From positions 1 to 40,141 of the forward strand of contig NZ_JAQGLG010000094.1 in the NCBI RefSeq assembly GCF_028292965.1: a DNA stretch of 40,141 nt, given 5' to 3'. Each line of letters starts with the position of its first letter. The stretch's first letter is position 1. This DNA comes from Sphingomonas bacterium (GTDB lineage: Bacteria > Pseudomonadota > Alphaproteobacteria > Sphingomonadales > Sphingomonadaceae). This document shows positions 148 through 29,917 of the stretch, one piece after another. The translations under genes and the position numbers were made by a program. The notes beneath the pieces were generated by a model. That model did not search any database. It was given only the letters and a program-made list of their open reading frames with translations, and was not told the origin of the DNA.

Positions 148-240
148 GTTTCAGCATCCATGCGCGACCAGTGGCCACCGGAGCGCCGCTCTTGGTTCAG
201 ATGACCGCGCATGGATCCTGAAACGAGTTCAGGATGACGG
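148..240. repeat. REPIN-like inverted repeat, family 1, copy a
   Basis: Left arm 148-166 (GTTTCAGCATCCATGCGCG) pairs with right arm 206-224 with one mismatch. The right side extends to 240 with a hairpin GATCCTGAAACGAGTTCAGG. The matching outer half of the left hairpin is missing here, so this copy is truncated on its left relative to 8687-8795. It sits between the DDAH-like gene and the next minus-strand gene. A smaller stem CCCGC-GTCA-GCGGG at 102-115 lies next to it. Confidence 0.8.
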
Positions 241-2981: not shown

Positions 2982-3833
2982 TCATTCCGTGATTGACGTA
3001 AGTGCCATGAAATCGCTTTCACCTATAATTCGGATGGGCTGCCCGGCTACGATGAGTGCCTCTACTTTAATTTGTTTTGAGCTTTTCTCGTGGCCGCCGA
3101 GCTTCGCGATATCTTGATCTCCAACGACGAGCATGCTCGTTGTCTTTGTAACCCCAGGCTGCACATCCGCGCCGGCGTCCGCCGCGCGATCTGCGGCTTG
3201 TCGGCGTGGAACCTGCAACGCGCCCGTGAAGACGATCGACTCGCCAACCAAAGCGCCATCGCCGTCGCCGGCACGGCAGATCGCAACGCCAGCCCCCGTC
3301 GGTCGTCTCACTAGTTTTAACCACTGGGCCAGATCGTGGCCCGTCTCCTCAATTGCCTTGAGCAGAATCAAGCCTGCTGTGCGGGCGTCTTCGAGTGCGT
3401 CATGATGCTGAAAGCTAATGCCGCAGTGACGCGCGACATTAGCGAGGCCGTAGCCGCGTTGCGCGAATTCTGGCCATGCCCGGCGGGCGACGCGCGCACT
3501 GTCCAACCAAGTGCAGGTCATCGCCGGAGAATTGCACTCTTCACATGCCTGTTGAAATGCGACCCGGTCGAAATGCGTATGGCAAATTACGAGTTCATCC
3601 GCGGTCCAACCGCAAAGCCAGTTATGAAGCTGATGAAACGTCTTCGCGTCGCGAACGGCGCACTCGTCGATTCCGTGGATACCGACATTCGTCGGGTCGA
3701 ACCACGTTTGCGGATTGACGAGCATGCTTTCGCTCCGAGACTCTCGGCCATCCTCAAACAGGACTAATCCGATCTGGCAGATGCTTCCCATGTTGGGATT
3801 CGCCGTCTCAACGTCGACCGCTACAAACCTCAT
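2982..3833 (-). CDS. DEDDh 3'-5' exonuclease (DnaQ-like) fused to a C-terminal BRCT domain
   Basis: The 283-residue product starts MRFVAVDVETA, giving the Exo I motif D7-x-E9. Exo II is in the HTHFDRVAF segment, and the HHDALEDARTAG segment supplies the Exo III His and Asp of the DEDDh class. The last 80 or so residues (VFTGAL...AADAGADV...TSMLVVGDQD) fit a BRCT fold. Proteins of this layout degrade single-stranded DNA or RNA ends, and BRCT domains bind DNA or phosphopeptides. The ATG at 3833 has GGGGAAG 4-5 bases upstream, better than the ATG at 3875. It stands alone between two sets of related inverted repeats, with lower GC than its flanks, which suggests a mobile or imported gene. Confidence 0.8.
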   Translation of the reverse strand: MRFVAVDVETANPNMGSICQIGLVLFEDGRESRSESMLVNPQTWFDPTNVGIHGIDECAVRDAKTFHQLHNWLCGWTADELVICHTHFDRVAFQQACEECNSPAMTCTWLDSARVARRAWPEFAQRGYGLANVARHCGISFQHHDALEDARTAGLILLKAIEETGHDLAQWLKLVRRPTGAGVAICRAGDGDGALVGESIVFTGALQVPRRQAADRAADAGADVQPGVTKTTSMLVVGDQDIAKLGGHEKSSKQIKVEALIVAGQPIRIIGESDFMALTSITE

Positions 3834-3952
3834 AAACTTCCCCGCTGCGAAAATACCGAGAGTAATGTTAGTCACGATAGGGCATTTCGACTATGGCTCG
3901 GCAAGACGCGACAAATATGCTCCAGCGGCTCGCGCCCGGAGGCGTCGTTATG

Positions 3953-4018
3953 GATTCGGGCGACAGTCCACTTATCTTGCCGCCTGCCCAAGCAATTAGA
4001 TGCACTGTCACCGGAATC
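3953..4018. repeat. inverted-repeat element B
   Basis: The unit begins GATTCGGGCGACAGTCCACT and ends TGCACTGTCACCGGAATC, with a middle (ATCTTGCCGCCTGCCC, CAATTAGATG) that aligns to element A at 2831-2891. It is about 5 bases longer and its left arm has diverged. Together with element C it flanks the exonuclease-BRCT gene on the side opposite element A. Confidence 0.8.
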
Positions 4019-4070
4019 CCGCGCTCGACGCAGGGGCGCAAGGAGCGAAGCTCGCGCAATTTCGCACTCC

Positions 4071-4120
4071 GATTCCGTTGACAGTTCACTTATCTCTCCG
4101 TCTGCCTTGGGCGTGGCTTA
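4071..4120. repeat. half copy (element C) of the same repeat
   Basis: GATTCCGTTGACAGTTCACT followed by TATCTCTCCGTCTGCC matches the left half of elements A and B; the right arm is missing. It ends about 60 bases before the antitoxin promoter region. Confidence 0.7.
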
Positions 4121-7780: not shown

Positions 7781-7982
7781 CCTCTCCCCTGAAGGGGGTC
7801 GCTGCGAAATTTCATCACGTTGGTGAACGTGCCCGCTCCCCTGGAAAAAGCCGTGTTCCTGCGAAAGCAGGAACCCAGGGCCACAGGCGTAGCGCGTGTT
7901 ACCCTGGGCTCCTGCTTTCGCAGGAGAACAGCGCCTGAAGAAGCGCGCCGCTGTTTTGCAACGATACCCTGAAGGGGAGGGG
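7781..7982. repeat. nested inverted repeats, REPIN-like
   Basis: Inner arms 7853-7880 and 7902-7929 are nearly perfect reverse complements (GTTCCTGCGAAAGCAGGAAC and partner). Each arm is itself a hairpin CCTGC-GAAA-GCAGG with a GNRA-type tetraloop in the RNA of one strand. Outer imperfect arms 7781-7811 and 7954-7982 (CTCCCCT..AGGGG..TCG.TGC.AAA) enclose them. The element fills the gap between scoB and the GST gene. Confidence 0.8.
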
Positions 7983-8013: not shown

Positions 8014-8649
8014 CTAACTCACATAATGCGCGGTGGTCTTGGCGGCGATCTCGTCGGCGGTGACGCCCGGGGCCATTTCGAGCAGCCTGAACGGCGAGGC
8101 ATGGTCGGGGCGCTGGAACACGGCGAGATCGGTGATCACCATGTCGACGACGTTCTTGCCGGTCAGCGGCAGGGTGCAGGACGGGATGAATTTGGGGTCG
8201 CCGTTCTTGCTGCTGTGCTCCATCACGACGATGATCTTCTTGACGCCGGCGACGAGGTCCATCGCGCCGCCCATGCCCTTGATCATCTTGCCCGGAATCA
8301 TCCAGTTGGCGATGTCGCCATTCTCGGCCACTTCCATCGCGCCGAGCACGGTCAGGTCGATATGCCCGCCGCGGATCATCGCGAAGCTGTCCGACGAGCT
8401 GAAATAGACCGATTGCGGCAGTTCGCTGATGGTCTGCTTGCCGGCGTTGATCAGATCGGGGTCTTCCTCGCCCGCGTAAGGGAAGGGGCCGATGCCGAGC
8501 ATGCCGTTTTCCGACTGCAGCGTGACCTCGACGCCTGCGGGGATGTGGTTGGCGACGAGCGTCGGGATGCCGATGCCGAGGTTGACGTAATAGCCGTCCT
8601 TCAGCTCGCGCGCGGCGCGGGCGGCCATTTCGTCACGGGTCCAGGTCAT
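8014..8649 (-). CDS. scoB: succinyl-CoA:3-ketoacid CoA-transferase, subunit B
   Basis: This subunit carries the active site for CoA transfer between succinyl-CoA and acetoacetate or related 3-oxoacids, a cytosolic step in ketone body or branched catabolic pathways. The 211 residues match the family length. The nucleophilic glutamate is E47 in the signature [18 protein letters not shown] at 25-32 and [14 protein letters not shown] are further family blocks. The start has GGAG 7 bases upstream. It is normally adjacent to subunit A, but here a HAD phosphatase gene and a repeat of about 110 bases lie between them on the same strand. Confidence 0.95.
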
Positions 8650-8686: not shown

Positions 8687-8795
8687 ACGTCATGCTGAAC
8701 TCGTTTCAGCATCCATGCGCGGTCATCTGAACCAGGAGCGACGCTCTTGTTGCCGTTGACCGCGCATGGACCCTGAAACAAGTTCAGGGTGACGG
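8687..8795. repeat. REPIN-like inverted repeat, family 1, copy b
   Basis: Both arms are complete: GTCATGCTGAACTCGTTTCAG then CATCCATGCGCG on the left, with the reverse counterpart CGCGCATGG, ACCCTGAAACAAGTTCAGGG and TGACGG on the right. Each arm folds as a small hairpin (CTGAA-CTYGT-TTCAG). A partly truncated relative is at 148-240. It sits between the phosphatase gene and scoB. Confidence 0.85.
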
Positions 8796-8803
8796 AGTAA
8801 AAT

Positions 8804-9913
8804 TTACTGCGGCGCGGCGGCCGGCGGGGTCGCGCCCGGATCGGTCCAGCGCTTGTCGGCGGGGAAGGCGTCGTCGAGGCCGCCCTTCAGCGCCGAGCCA
8901 TAGACCGGGTTGGGCAGGATGAACCAGCCATGGCCCCAGATGGTGCGCAACGCCTCGCCGTCGATCGCGGCGCGGCGCATGGTCGGGGTCATGCCCGGGC
9001 GGTTGAACAGATCGGAGAAATCGCCGAGCTGATCGCCGACCATCGCGATGACGCAATATTTGAGCGCGATGGCGTGGCGCCGGGCATCCTTGGCCGAGCC
9101 GGTGCCTTCATCGCCCTGCAGCCAGAGGTTCTTGAGATGGGTGACGGGGCCGAGGCCGGCGCCGACCAAGGCCGCCTCTGTCTGCGCCGCGTTGGAGGCG
9201 AGGCGGTTGGAGTTGTAGACCATCGTCACGCCGCTCGACTTGGCGATCTTGGCGGCTTCGAGAATGCCCGGCGTGGCGGCGACCGCGCCGGCGCCGGTCT
9301 GTTCCCAGCGGTCCCAGCGGGCCTGGTCATAGGACCCGGTGCGCTGGCTCTCATCGGCCTCATAGCCGAGGTTGAGCAGCGAGGTCTCGTCGACGTCGAG
9401 CACGACGGCGAGCGGCTTGGCGCCGCAATCCTCGAACTTGGGCGCGGCGAGGGTGGCGTCGGGGGTGAGCACCGCCGACCACACCTTGAGCCCGACCGCG
9501 CGATCGGACGAGCGCGCGATCATCATGTCGATCAGGCCGCGATAGGCCTGCACGCTGAGCGCGGCGCCTTCGCCCGAGGCGTAGAGGAACTGCATGCCGG
9601 GGGTGATGGTGCCTGCGACCGGTGCGGGCGCGGCGGTAGGGGGCGGTGCCGGCGTTGCGGCAACGGCCTGCGGCTCTTCGGCGCGCGAGGCCGTGACGAT
9701 CGGTGCGGGCGCGGGTGCCGCTGCCGGTGCGGGGGCGGCGGGTGGTGTCGCGGTCGCCTGGACGGTGGCGCCGGGCAGGTCGGGGGCGGTGTTGTGCTTC
9801 AGCTGCTTCCGGCCGATCGCGCCGGCGGCGATGACCGGGACAATCGCCGCGACGCAGCCCGACAGGGCCCAGGCTATGCCGCACAGTGCGGCGGCGCGTG
9901 TCGCGCGCTTCAT
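8804..9913 (-). CDS. HAD-family acid phosphatase lipoprotein (class B/e(P4)-like)
   Basis: The 369-residue protein has a lipoprotein signal (lipobox LSGC, Cys20), so it is probably membrane-anchored and faces the periplasm. A long Ala/Pro-rich linker (about 50-105) follows, then a HAD subclass IIIB phosphatase domain. The catalytic DVDET is at 173-177; D173 is the nucleophile and D175 the acid/base. YNSNR serves as motif II and MVGDQLGDF as motif IV. Relatives dephosphorylate nucleoside monophosphates and other organophosphates. Its start overlaps scoA by 4 bases (ATGA), so it is translated with the CoA-transferase operon, an unusual partner. Confidence 0.88.
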
Positions 9914-11864: not shown

Positions 11865-11968
11865 CTTCCCCGGCGGAGGCCGGGGCCCAGTTGGGAAGCG
11901 GTTGGCAATGATCGATCCGCTCCGTCATTTTCACCTTTCCAACTGGGCCCCGGCCTCCGCCGGGGAAG
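11865..11968. repeat. REPIN-like inverted repeat, family 3, copy a
   Basis: The left arm CTTCCCCGGCGGAGGCCGGG continues with GCCCAGTTGG; the right arm CCAACTGGGCCCCGGCCTCC continues with GCCGGGGAAG. The roughly 32-base arms are almost perfect and surround about 40 bases. Each arm holds its own stem CCCCGGC-GGAG-GCCGGGG. A second copy with a GAAG loop is at 29743-29848. Confidence 0.88.
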
Positions 11969-20953: not shown

Positions 20954-21051
20954 CCGTCACCCCGGACTTGTTCCGGGGTCCACCGTACCGCGCAAGAGGG
21001 GACCGGTTTGCTCGTGGAACGGTGGATGCCGGAACAAGTCCGGCATGACGG
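20954..21051. repeat. REPIN-like inverted repeat, family 2
   Basis: Left arm CCGTCACCCCGGACTTGTTC, then CGGGGTCCACCGT; right arm ACGGTGGATGCCGGAACAAG, then TCCGGCATGACGG. Each arm folds as CCGGA-CTTGT-TCCGG. A single right arm occurs at 29889-29917. The layout matches family 1 with different stem bases but the same CTTGT loop. Confidence 0.85.
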
Positions 21052-29742: not shown

Positions 29743-29848
29743 CCGTTCCCCGGCGAAGGTCGGGGCCCAGTTGGGGCACGAGGTAACCAGCGTTGCGCCC
29801 CGTTACTCCTGCCGTTCCGACTGGGCCCCGGCCTTCGCCGGGGAACGG
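29743..29848. repeat. REPIN-like inverted repeat, family 3, copy b
   Basis: Left arm CCGTTCCCCGGCGAAGGTCG, then GGGCCCAGTTGGG; right arm GACTGGGCCCCGGCCTTCGC, then CGGGGAACGG. Compared with 11865-11968 the outer bases and the hairpin loop (GAAG for GGAG) have changed together in both arms. The spacer is also different. It lies after the RNase T2 gene. Confidence 0.88.
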
Positions 29849-29888: not shown

Positions 29889-29917
29889 GTGGATGCCGGA
29901 ACAAGTCCGGCATGACG
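29889..29917. repeat. single arm of the family 2 repeat
   Basis: GTGGATGCCGGAACAAGTCC followed by GGCATGACG is identical to the right arm of 20954-21051. No left arm is visible nearby, so this is a solitary REP-like hairpin just downstream of the DUF4112 gene. Confidence 0.75.

Follow-up and report, generated by a model that had tools for sequence, protein, structure and literature searches.

Head-to-head CGTC-class hairpin repeats in a Sphingomonas genome as probable cognate sites of small GIY-YIG nucleases

The stretch of DNA analysed here, hereafter the window, comprises 40,141 nucleotides of a Sphingomonas contig. Between a CoA-transferase gene (8017-8649) and an acid phosphatase gene (8804-9913, minus strand) lies a pair of inverted hairpin arms, the family 1 dimer, which starts 9 nt past the acid phosphatase stop. 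The plus-strand arm (8688-8715; CGTCATGCTGAACTCGTTTCAGCATCCA) has a CTCGT loop and outer stem pairs of the TG/CA type, the minus-strand arm (8767-8794; CGTCACCCTGAACTTGTTTCAGGGTCCA) is of the outer type CC/GG, and the spacer between them (8716-8766) has complementary ends, CATGCGCGGTCA and TGACCGCGCATG. A decayed family 1 dimer at 145-239 has a truncated left arm and an intact right arm (212-239, minus strand). The family 2 dimer consists of an arm of outer type CC/GG with the core CCGGA-CTTGT-TCCGG (20955-20982, plus strand) and an arm of outer type TG/CA (21023-21050, minus strand), and a lone family 2 arm lies at 29890-29917 on the minus strand.

Arms of both families are 28 nt long, with a CGTC head, an 8-bp stem, a 5-nt loop and a CCA tail, and their pairs face head to head. 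The sequence-only reading of this DNA had described a 5-bp stem, which is too short, and constant flanks GTCA/TCCA, which are better named as the CGTC head and the CCA tail. Its central observation, two compensated stem-pair changes between the families, was confirmed as described: families 1 and 2 differ at stem pairs 5 and 7, where T-A is replaced by C-G and A-T by G-C. The outer two stem pairs also vary with compensation, in this case between both arms of one element. In both families an arm on its own forms an 8-bp hairpin, and each dimer also folds as a whole into a single long hairpin (z-scores -7.7 and -7.8).

Two further hairpin families, neither with a CGTC head, occur in the window. 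Family 3 is represented by one dimer (7852-7930; TTCCTGC-GAAA-GCAGGAA, CCCAG tail) and family 4 by two (11866-11967 and 29746-29845; CCCCGGC-GRAG-GYCGGGG, CCCAG tail). A search of the window against Rfam at gathering thresholds gave one tRNA as the sole match. We also observed inverted and direct GGTGACAGTGCACTTA-like repeats at 2831-2942 and 3953-4106, which flank a 297-aa ORF at 2982-3875 (minus strand) and perhaps form another mobile unit with it.

To measure pairing, we used 150 distinct 28-mers that were chosen by head, loop and tail, with no requirement on the stem. The results showed that 107 of the 150 formed 7 or 8 of the 8 possible Watson-Crick pairs, and the mean number of pairs was 6.19 compared with 4.01 after shuffling of the 3' halves. 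When the partner was slid by 1 to 3 bases, 0 or 1 of the 150 attained 7 pairs. Among the 110 28-mers with at least 6 pairs, changes on both sides from the commonest pair were present in 49, 37, 43 and 38 at pairs 2, 3, 5 and 7, respectively, these being counts of sequences and not of independent events. A stem intermediate between families 1 and 2, CCGAA/TTCGG, exists in relatives, for example in genomes G006 and G157. The stem pairs thus covary strongly, beyond both the shuffled and the slid controls, and the hairpin is under selection; this excess was the test that had been set for the proposed selection.

Within dimers, the inner core was common to both arms in 34 of 34 elements of the genome itself and in 60 of 61 elements from relatives (61 of 65 kept, dimers with at least 150 nt between arm starts being excluded). 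The outer pairs were unlike between the two arms in 31 of the 34 own dimers, against 17.9 expected (0 of 2000 shuffles as high), and in 51 of the 61 dimers of relatives, against 40.9 expected (p = 0.0065). The shared inner core and the differing outer pairs indicate that the core defines the family, while the outer stem alternates within an element.

The repeats are numerous. With the stem left free and at most one mismatch allowed, the pattern GTCA-N6-ACTYGTT-N6-TCCA matched the 4.63-Mb genome at 100 places in each orientation, and the reversed control gave 0; families 3 and 4 had 42 and 110 exact arms genome-wide. Copies elsewhere, which had also been predicted, were found: with the own genome counted in each set, the exact arm pattern is present in 64 of 149 genomes of the bacterial family and in 44 of 61 genomes of the genus, and across these 61 the number of arms per genome ranges from 0 to 171. 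The 34 own dimers came from 54 own loci, and their arm starts are 78 nt apart in 18 and 67 nt apart in 8. In two genomes, G069 (loci L157, L159, L160, L166) and G006 (L130, L131), we observed dimers whose arm starts lie 84-87 nt apart and whose one arm has its 3' half swapped for TTTGTGCAAGCA-like sequence, and this recurrent form is a possible chimeric arm type.

CGTC-tagged REPs have been described by Di Nocera, De Gregorio and Rocco (2013; PMC3733652); in excerpts of that paper they occur in several phyla, with sphingomonads among the hosts, have an 8-9 bp stem and a 4-5 nt loop, include heterodimers in their families 2 and 3, and are without an associated transposase gene. The window arms of families 1 and 2 agree with this description in their unpaired CGTC head at one end, in stem and loop length and in the CCA tail, and the own arms mostly form head-to-head dimers whose outer pairs differ, as counted above. 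The REP/REPIN-like layout that had been suggested for these repeats is supported.

Within 60 arm neighbourhoods of seven relatives, unusually long dimers were present in four of the seven, one more was found in the own genome, and all five inserts encode a small GIY-YIG nuclease. A profile built from eight small GIY-YIG proteins (profile A1) had members in 106 of the 149 genomes of the bacterial family. We compiled 30 loci, 80 further ones (nearly all of the stronger matches listed, and 30 of the weaker ones) and 3 earlier ones, and 111 of these 113 remained among the matches listed when 2 duplicates were dropped. Among these listed matches, inverted CGTC-type arms stood on both sides of the gene at 69 of the 111 loci, with both arms within 40 nt at 50 of the 111, and on one side at 14. 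At shifted control positions 5 of 438 were bracketed, 0 of them within 40 nt, and RAYT loci gave 0 of 30. When the eight seed proteins, seven bracketed ones among them, were removed, 62 of 103 listed loci were bracketed, and among the matches listed the proportion was 62 of 81 for stronger relatives and 7 of 30 for weaker ones. Upstream arms lay at a median of 21 nt from the edge of the profile match and downstream arms at a median of 12 nt.

The two arms of a unit carry one core. The same core was present on both sides in 61 of the 69 bracketed loci, compared with a mean of 16.1 and a maximum of 25 in 1000 shuffles, and about 10 different cores were found among these loci. Core labels also cluster on the nuclease tree, where they required 15 changes against 32.4 after shuffling (0 of 200 shuffles as low); for the tree test alone, 4 of the 8 discordant arm pairs, whose arms are variants of a single core, were labelled with that core. 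Half of the forks of this tree are open; clustering on it was weak for the family 2 core label (34 of 500 shuffles gave as low a count) and absent for three small core labels.

The bracketing was also assessed by a motif-free test, which assumes neither head nor tail motif. It found brackets at 60 of 79 family loci, at 17 of 30 weaker family loci and at 43 of 80 loci across bacteria, with controls of 0/214, 1/59 and 0/296, respectively. Of the 17 weaker loci, at least L314 seems to have matched by chance. With the CGTC-type arms, the best 80 of 567 relatives in other bacteria had arms on both sides in 44, on one side in 19 and on neither side in 17, with a control of 0 of 149; for those loci under 2.2 kb the match ends were approximated. 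The bracketed loci among these best 80 of 567 include records titled gamma-, beta- and deltaproteobacteria, a planctomycete, a Bacteroidetes bin and a Neisseria bin. On plasmid AZO_p3 of Azospirillum lipoferum (L425), a homologous nuclease gene is situated between sufB and sufC and is flanked on both sides by CGTC hairpins.

In the own genome, each of the 6 genes matching profile A1 lies between inverted hairpins no more than 300 nt away, the distance used in the own-genome motif-free test (160 nt in its controls). The four hairpin families at these genes are the four families of the window: the gene on contig C218 carries family 1, that on C234 family 2, that on C132 family 3, whose stem is the one in the window dimer, and those on C217, C80 and C95 the family 4 hairpin of the window. 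A simple pair is lacking around the genes on C132 and C234, which have dimers or mixed arms beside them instead. Family 1 dimers match the C218 unit in their arms and at 25 of the 26 interior bases next to the arms, a likeness to be expected if these dimers were gene-less derivatives of that unit; judged from this sequence sharing, the reverse, a dimer gaining the gene, would be compatible too. For family 2, a descent of the dimers from the C234 unit by internal deletion was rejected, since no interior is shared. A seventh own match to PF01541 lies in a 643-aa frame that is not matched by profile A1 and is presumably UvrC.

The GIY-YIG domain was recognised in two of the nucleases by PF01541 with 45.7 and 39 bits (cut-off 22.6). 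Across 54 sequences, Y8, G21, H33, E66 and N85 are invariant and Y19 and R29 are present in at least 90%; we take these seven to be the catalytic residues. An AlphaFold2 model of the nuclease had a mean pLDDT of 92.9, and its closest PDB folds were UPF0213 BH0048, Slx1 and UvrC domains (best E 3.2e-3); a search of the PDB by sequence gave no match at E 0.1, and no NCBIfam family covers the two nucleases. A gonococcal homologue is identical to the family 1 nuclease at 49 of 90 positions (54% over 90 aa) and sits within 1.7 kb of sequence that carries 13 CGTC-type hairpins, the two nearest of which face tail to tail. We assume that this homologue is Ssn, a GIY-YIG family reported in a 2025 Nature Communications paper to cut single-stranded DNA at repeats (NTS/dRS3) in Neisseria. 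In the excerpts of PMC3733652, dRS3 is equated with CGTC-1. The sphingomonad system is therefore probably a relative of Ssn. Excerpts of the later literature on CGTC REPs contain no link to GIY-YIG genes; we do not claim that the pairing of nuclease and repeat as such is unpublished.

Presence of the arms differs between relatives. In five genomes of the same genus (G091, G150, G152, G153 and G157), the CoA-transferase and acid phosphatase genes stand side by side with a gap of 12 to 49 nt that holds no dimer. At 12 same-genus loci there is no arm at the dimer-side end of the CoA-transferase gene, and in G156 a family 2 dimer is located at its other end. The flanks of the orthologous site are too divergent for a clean junction, and no target duplications were evident by eye in the aligned flanks. 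Across the 149 genomes, arms were present in 45 of the 59 with a strong nuclease match compared with 19 of the 90 others (p = 3e-11, uncorrected for kinship). Genomes G070 (12 arms) and G136 (18 arms) have no match to profile A1, and G028, G046, G138 and G142 have arms together with weaker nuclease matches only. Conversely, 14 genomes have a strong nuclease match and no arm of the CGTC-type pattern, and several of these carry another flanking core.

The sites of the arms share a base composition. At bases -4 to -9 on the 5' side of the CGTC head, G makes up 4%, compared with 36% further out. The 12 nt 5' of CGTC contained at most one G in 52 of the 69 contexts from the own genome (0 and 2 at control distances) and in 212 of 345 contexts from relatives (27 and 19). 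Since these G-poor flanks differ in sequence, the depletion resembles a preference for target or substrate, and such a preference would fit an enzyme acting on unstructured single strands. Immediately beside the CGTC head, about 94% of own contexts have a pyrimidine, and the flank sequences are otherwise unconserved.

We interpret the repeats as CGTC-class REPs in head-to-head, REPIN-like arrangement, each core being the cognate site of a small GIY-YIG nuclease of about 100 aa, with the dimers as gene-less satellites, and we give this reading a probability of roughly 0.75. According to it, a nuclease gene lies between inverted copies of its own hairpin, typically about 21 nt upstream and about 12 nt downstream of the domain, and the two compensated stem pairs would mark the divergence of one nuclease-hairpin pair from another. 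The arms would fold when the DNA is single-stranded, as in replication, repair or uptake, the nuclease would recognise and cut at the folded arms, and both the unit with the nuclease gene and the paired-arm derivatives without it would be copied or moved to new, G-poor sites. The constraint on the hairpin, the bracketing, the single core per unit, its clustering on the nuclease tree and the varying presence among relatives are observations; binding, single-strand cleavage and mobilisation are inferred from them, with falling confidence: recognition of the hairpins by the nuclease is very probable, cleavage at the arms is likely, and for mobilisation by the nuclease we see even odds. More tentatively, and with slightly less than even confidence in the whole, the elements may constitute a class of mobile DNA with a GIY-YIG nuclease as sole enzyme, in which autonomous hairpin-gene-hairpin units of 400-460 bp and gene-less satellites spread via single-stranded DNA into G-poor sites, and several nuclease-hairpin specificities coexist in one chromosome and diverge by compensated stem changes.

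The sequence-only reading had proposed that the hairpins are moved by a RAYT or bound by a protein. Recognition by a protein is likely, as argued above, and it is the RAYT as that protein that lacks support. The arms would in that case be ordinary REPINs moved in trans by a RAYT, that is, a Y1 HUH transposase, and their link to GIY-YIG genes would be incidental; the head-to-head paired layout is that of REPINs, and the search for a RAYT gene in the genome did find a candidate. The genome encodes two Y1_Tnp genes, L025 on contig C143 and L026 on contig C170. L025 is REP-transposase-like (NF047646, 68 bits, under the 80-bit cut-off), but a different, unrelated CTAATTAGTATTATGTCCCC repeat flanks it. 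We noted CTAATTAGTATTATGTCCCCGAATT repeats at L025:1115-1188 and 1903-1928 (C143) flanking this RAYT-like gene, which resemble the TIR-associated (TIRYT) type in the excerpts of PMC3733652. L026 sits on a 3.8-kb contig, and given that the assembly is listed as 6.5% contaminated, this gene may be foreign to the organism. Arms were somewhat more frequent in genomes with a RAYT match (15 of 24 versus 49 of 125 without, p = 0.043), as were counts of at least 10 arms (11 of 24 versus 22 of 125, p = 0.0055), these p-values too being uncorrected for kinship; however, the two most arm-rich of the family relatives, G066 and G129, have no RAYT match. None of 30 RAYT-family loci, from 24 of the 149 genomes, had arms within up to 1.5 kb of flank at up to 2 mismatches. 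The arms also begin with CGTC and not with GTAG, which is the head of RAYT-associated REPs in the excerpts of PMC3733652. We rejected a RAYT as the mobiliser on the different repeat at the own RAYT-like gene and on the 0 of 30 RAYT loci with arms, and consider this explanation very improbable.

The bracketing and the covariation would fit equally well if the nuclease recognised the hairpins without moving them. The arms would then be genomic marks, for example in the control of DNA uptake or recombination, that spread otherwise, and the gene would be kept inside its own marks. Ssn is said to affect natural transformation in Neisseria, which would suit such a role. Insertion as a unit is nevertheless what is suggested by arm numbers from 0 to 171 in one genus, by the absence of the dimer at the orthologous site, by the end that family 1 dimers share with the C218 unit and by the preferred G-poor flank, and we regard pure marks as rather unlikely. 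A role at the RNA level, in which the arms serve as terminators or as ends that stabilise mRNA and owe the upkeep of their stem to this function, could draw on the position of the window dimer 9 nt past the acid phosphatase stop, on the long folds (z about -7.7) and on the preference of CGTC REPs for places downstream of genes given in the excerpts of PMC3733652. Such a role would not account for the bracketing of one gene family, for identical cores on both sides and a core type that follows the nuclease tree, or for the conserved loop and head, and it seems to us quite improbable.

On the reading that each core is the cognate site of a small GIY-YIG nuclease, the bracketing names a candidate enzyme for CGTC REPs, which were reported to have none of their own. 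It also offers many natural nuclease-hairpin pairs that can be tested directly, with four hairpin families in one genome, so that the spread of CGTC repeats becomes a question for the bench. If mobilisation proved true, mobile DNA that moves by way of single strands would have GIY-YIG nucleases among its drivers, alongside HUH enzymes.

Three known systems resemble the one described here. Like REPINs and their RAYTs, it comprises paired inverted hairpins that are multi-copy and mostly intergenic, and a gene flanked by the same hairpins; the enzyme, however, is of the GIY-YIG family instead of an HUH Y1 transposase, and the head is CGTC instead of GTAG. With Ssn and NTS/dRS3 of Neisseria it shares a small GIY-YIG protein, and the gonococcal homologue lies amid CGTC-type hairpins. 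It differs from that system in that the sphingomonad has other hairpin cores, paired REPIN-like satellites and several nuclease-hairpin pairs per genome; moreover, the two hairpins adjacent to the gonococcal gene stand tail to tail, unlike those of sphingomonad units, and the nuclease activity here is predicted. The closest likeness in the repeats themselves is to the CGTC-tagged REPs, which in the excerpts of PMC3733652 have the same CGTC head, 8-bp stem, 5-nt loop and CCA tail and form HH heterodimers with conserved spacers and alternative complementary stem residues. Those excerpts give no associated transposase gene, whereas here a GIY-YIG gene is bracketed by the arms, and window families 3 and 4, which lack the CGTC head, follow the same rule of paired hairpins and nuclease.
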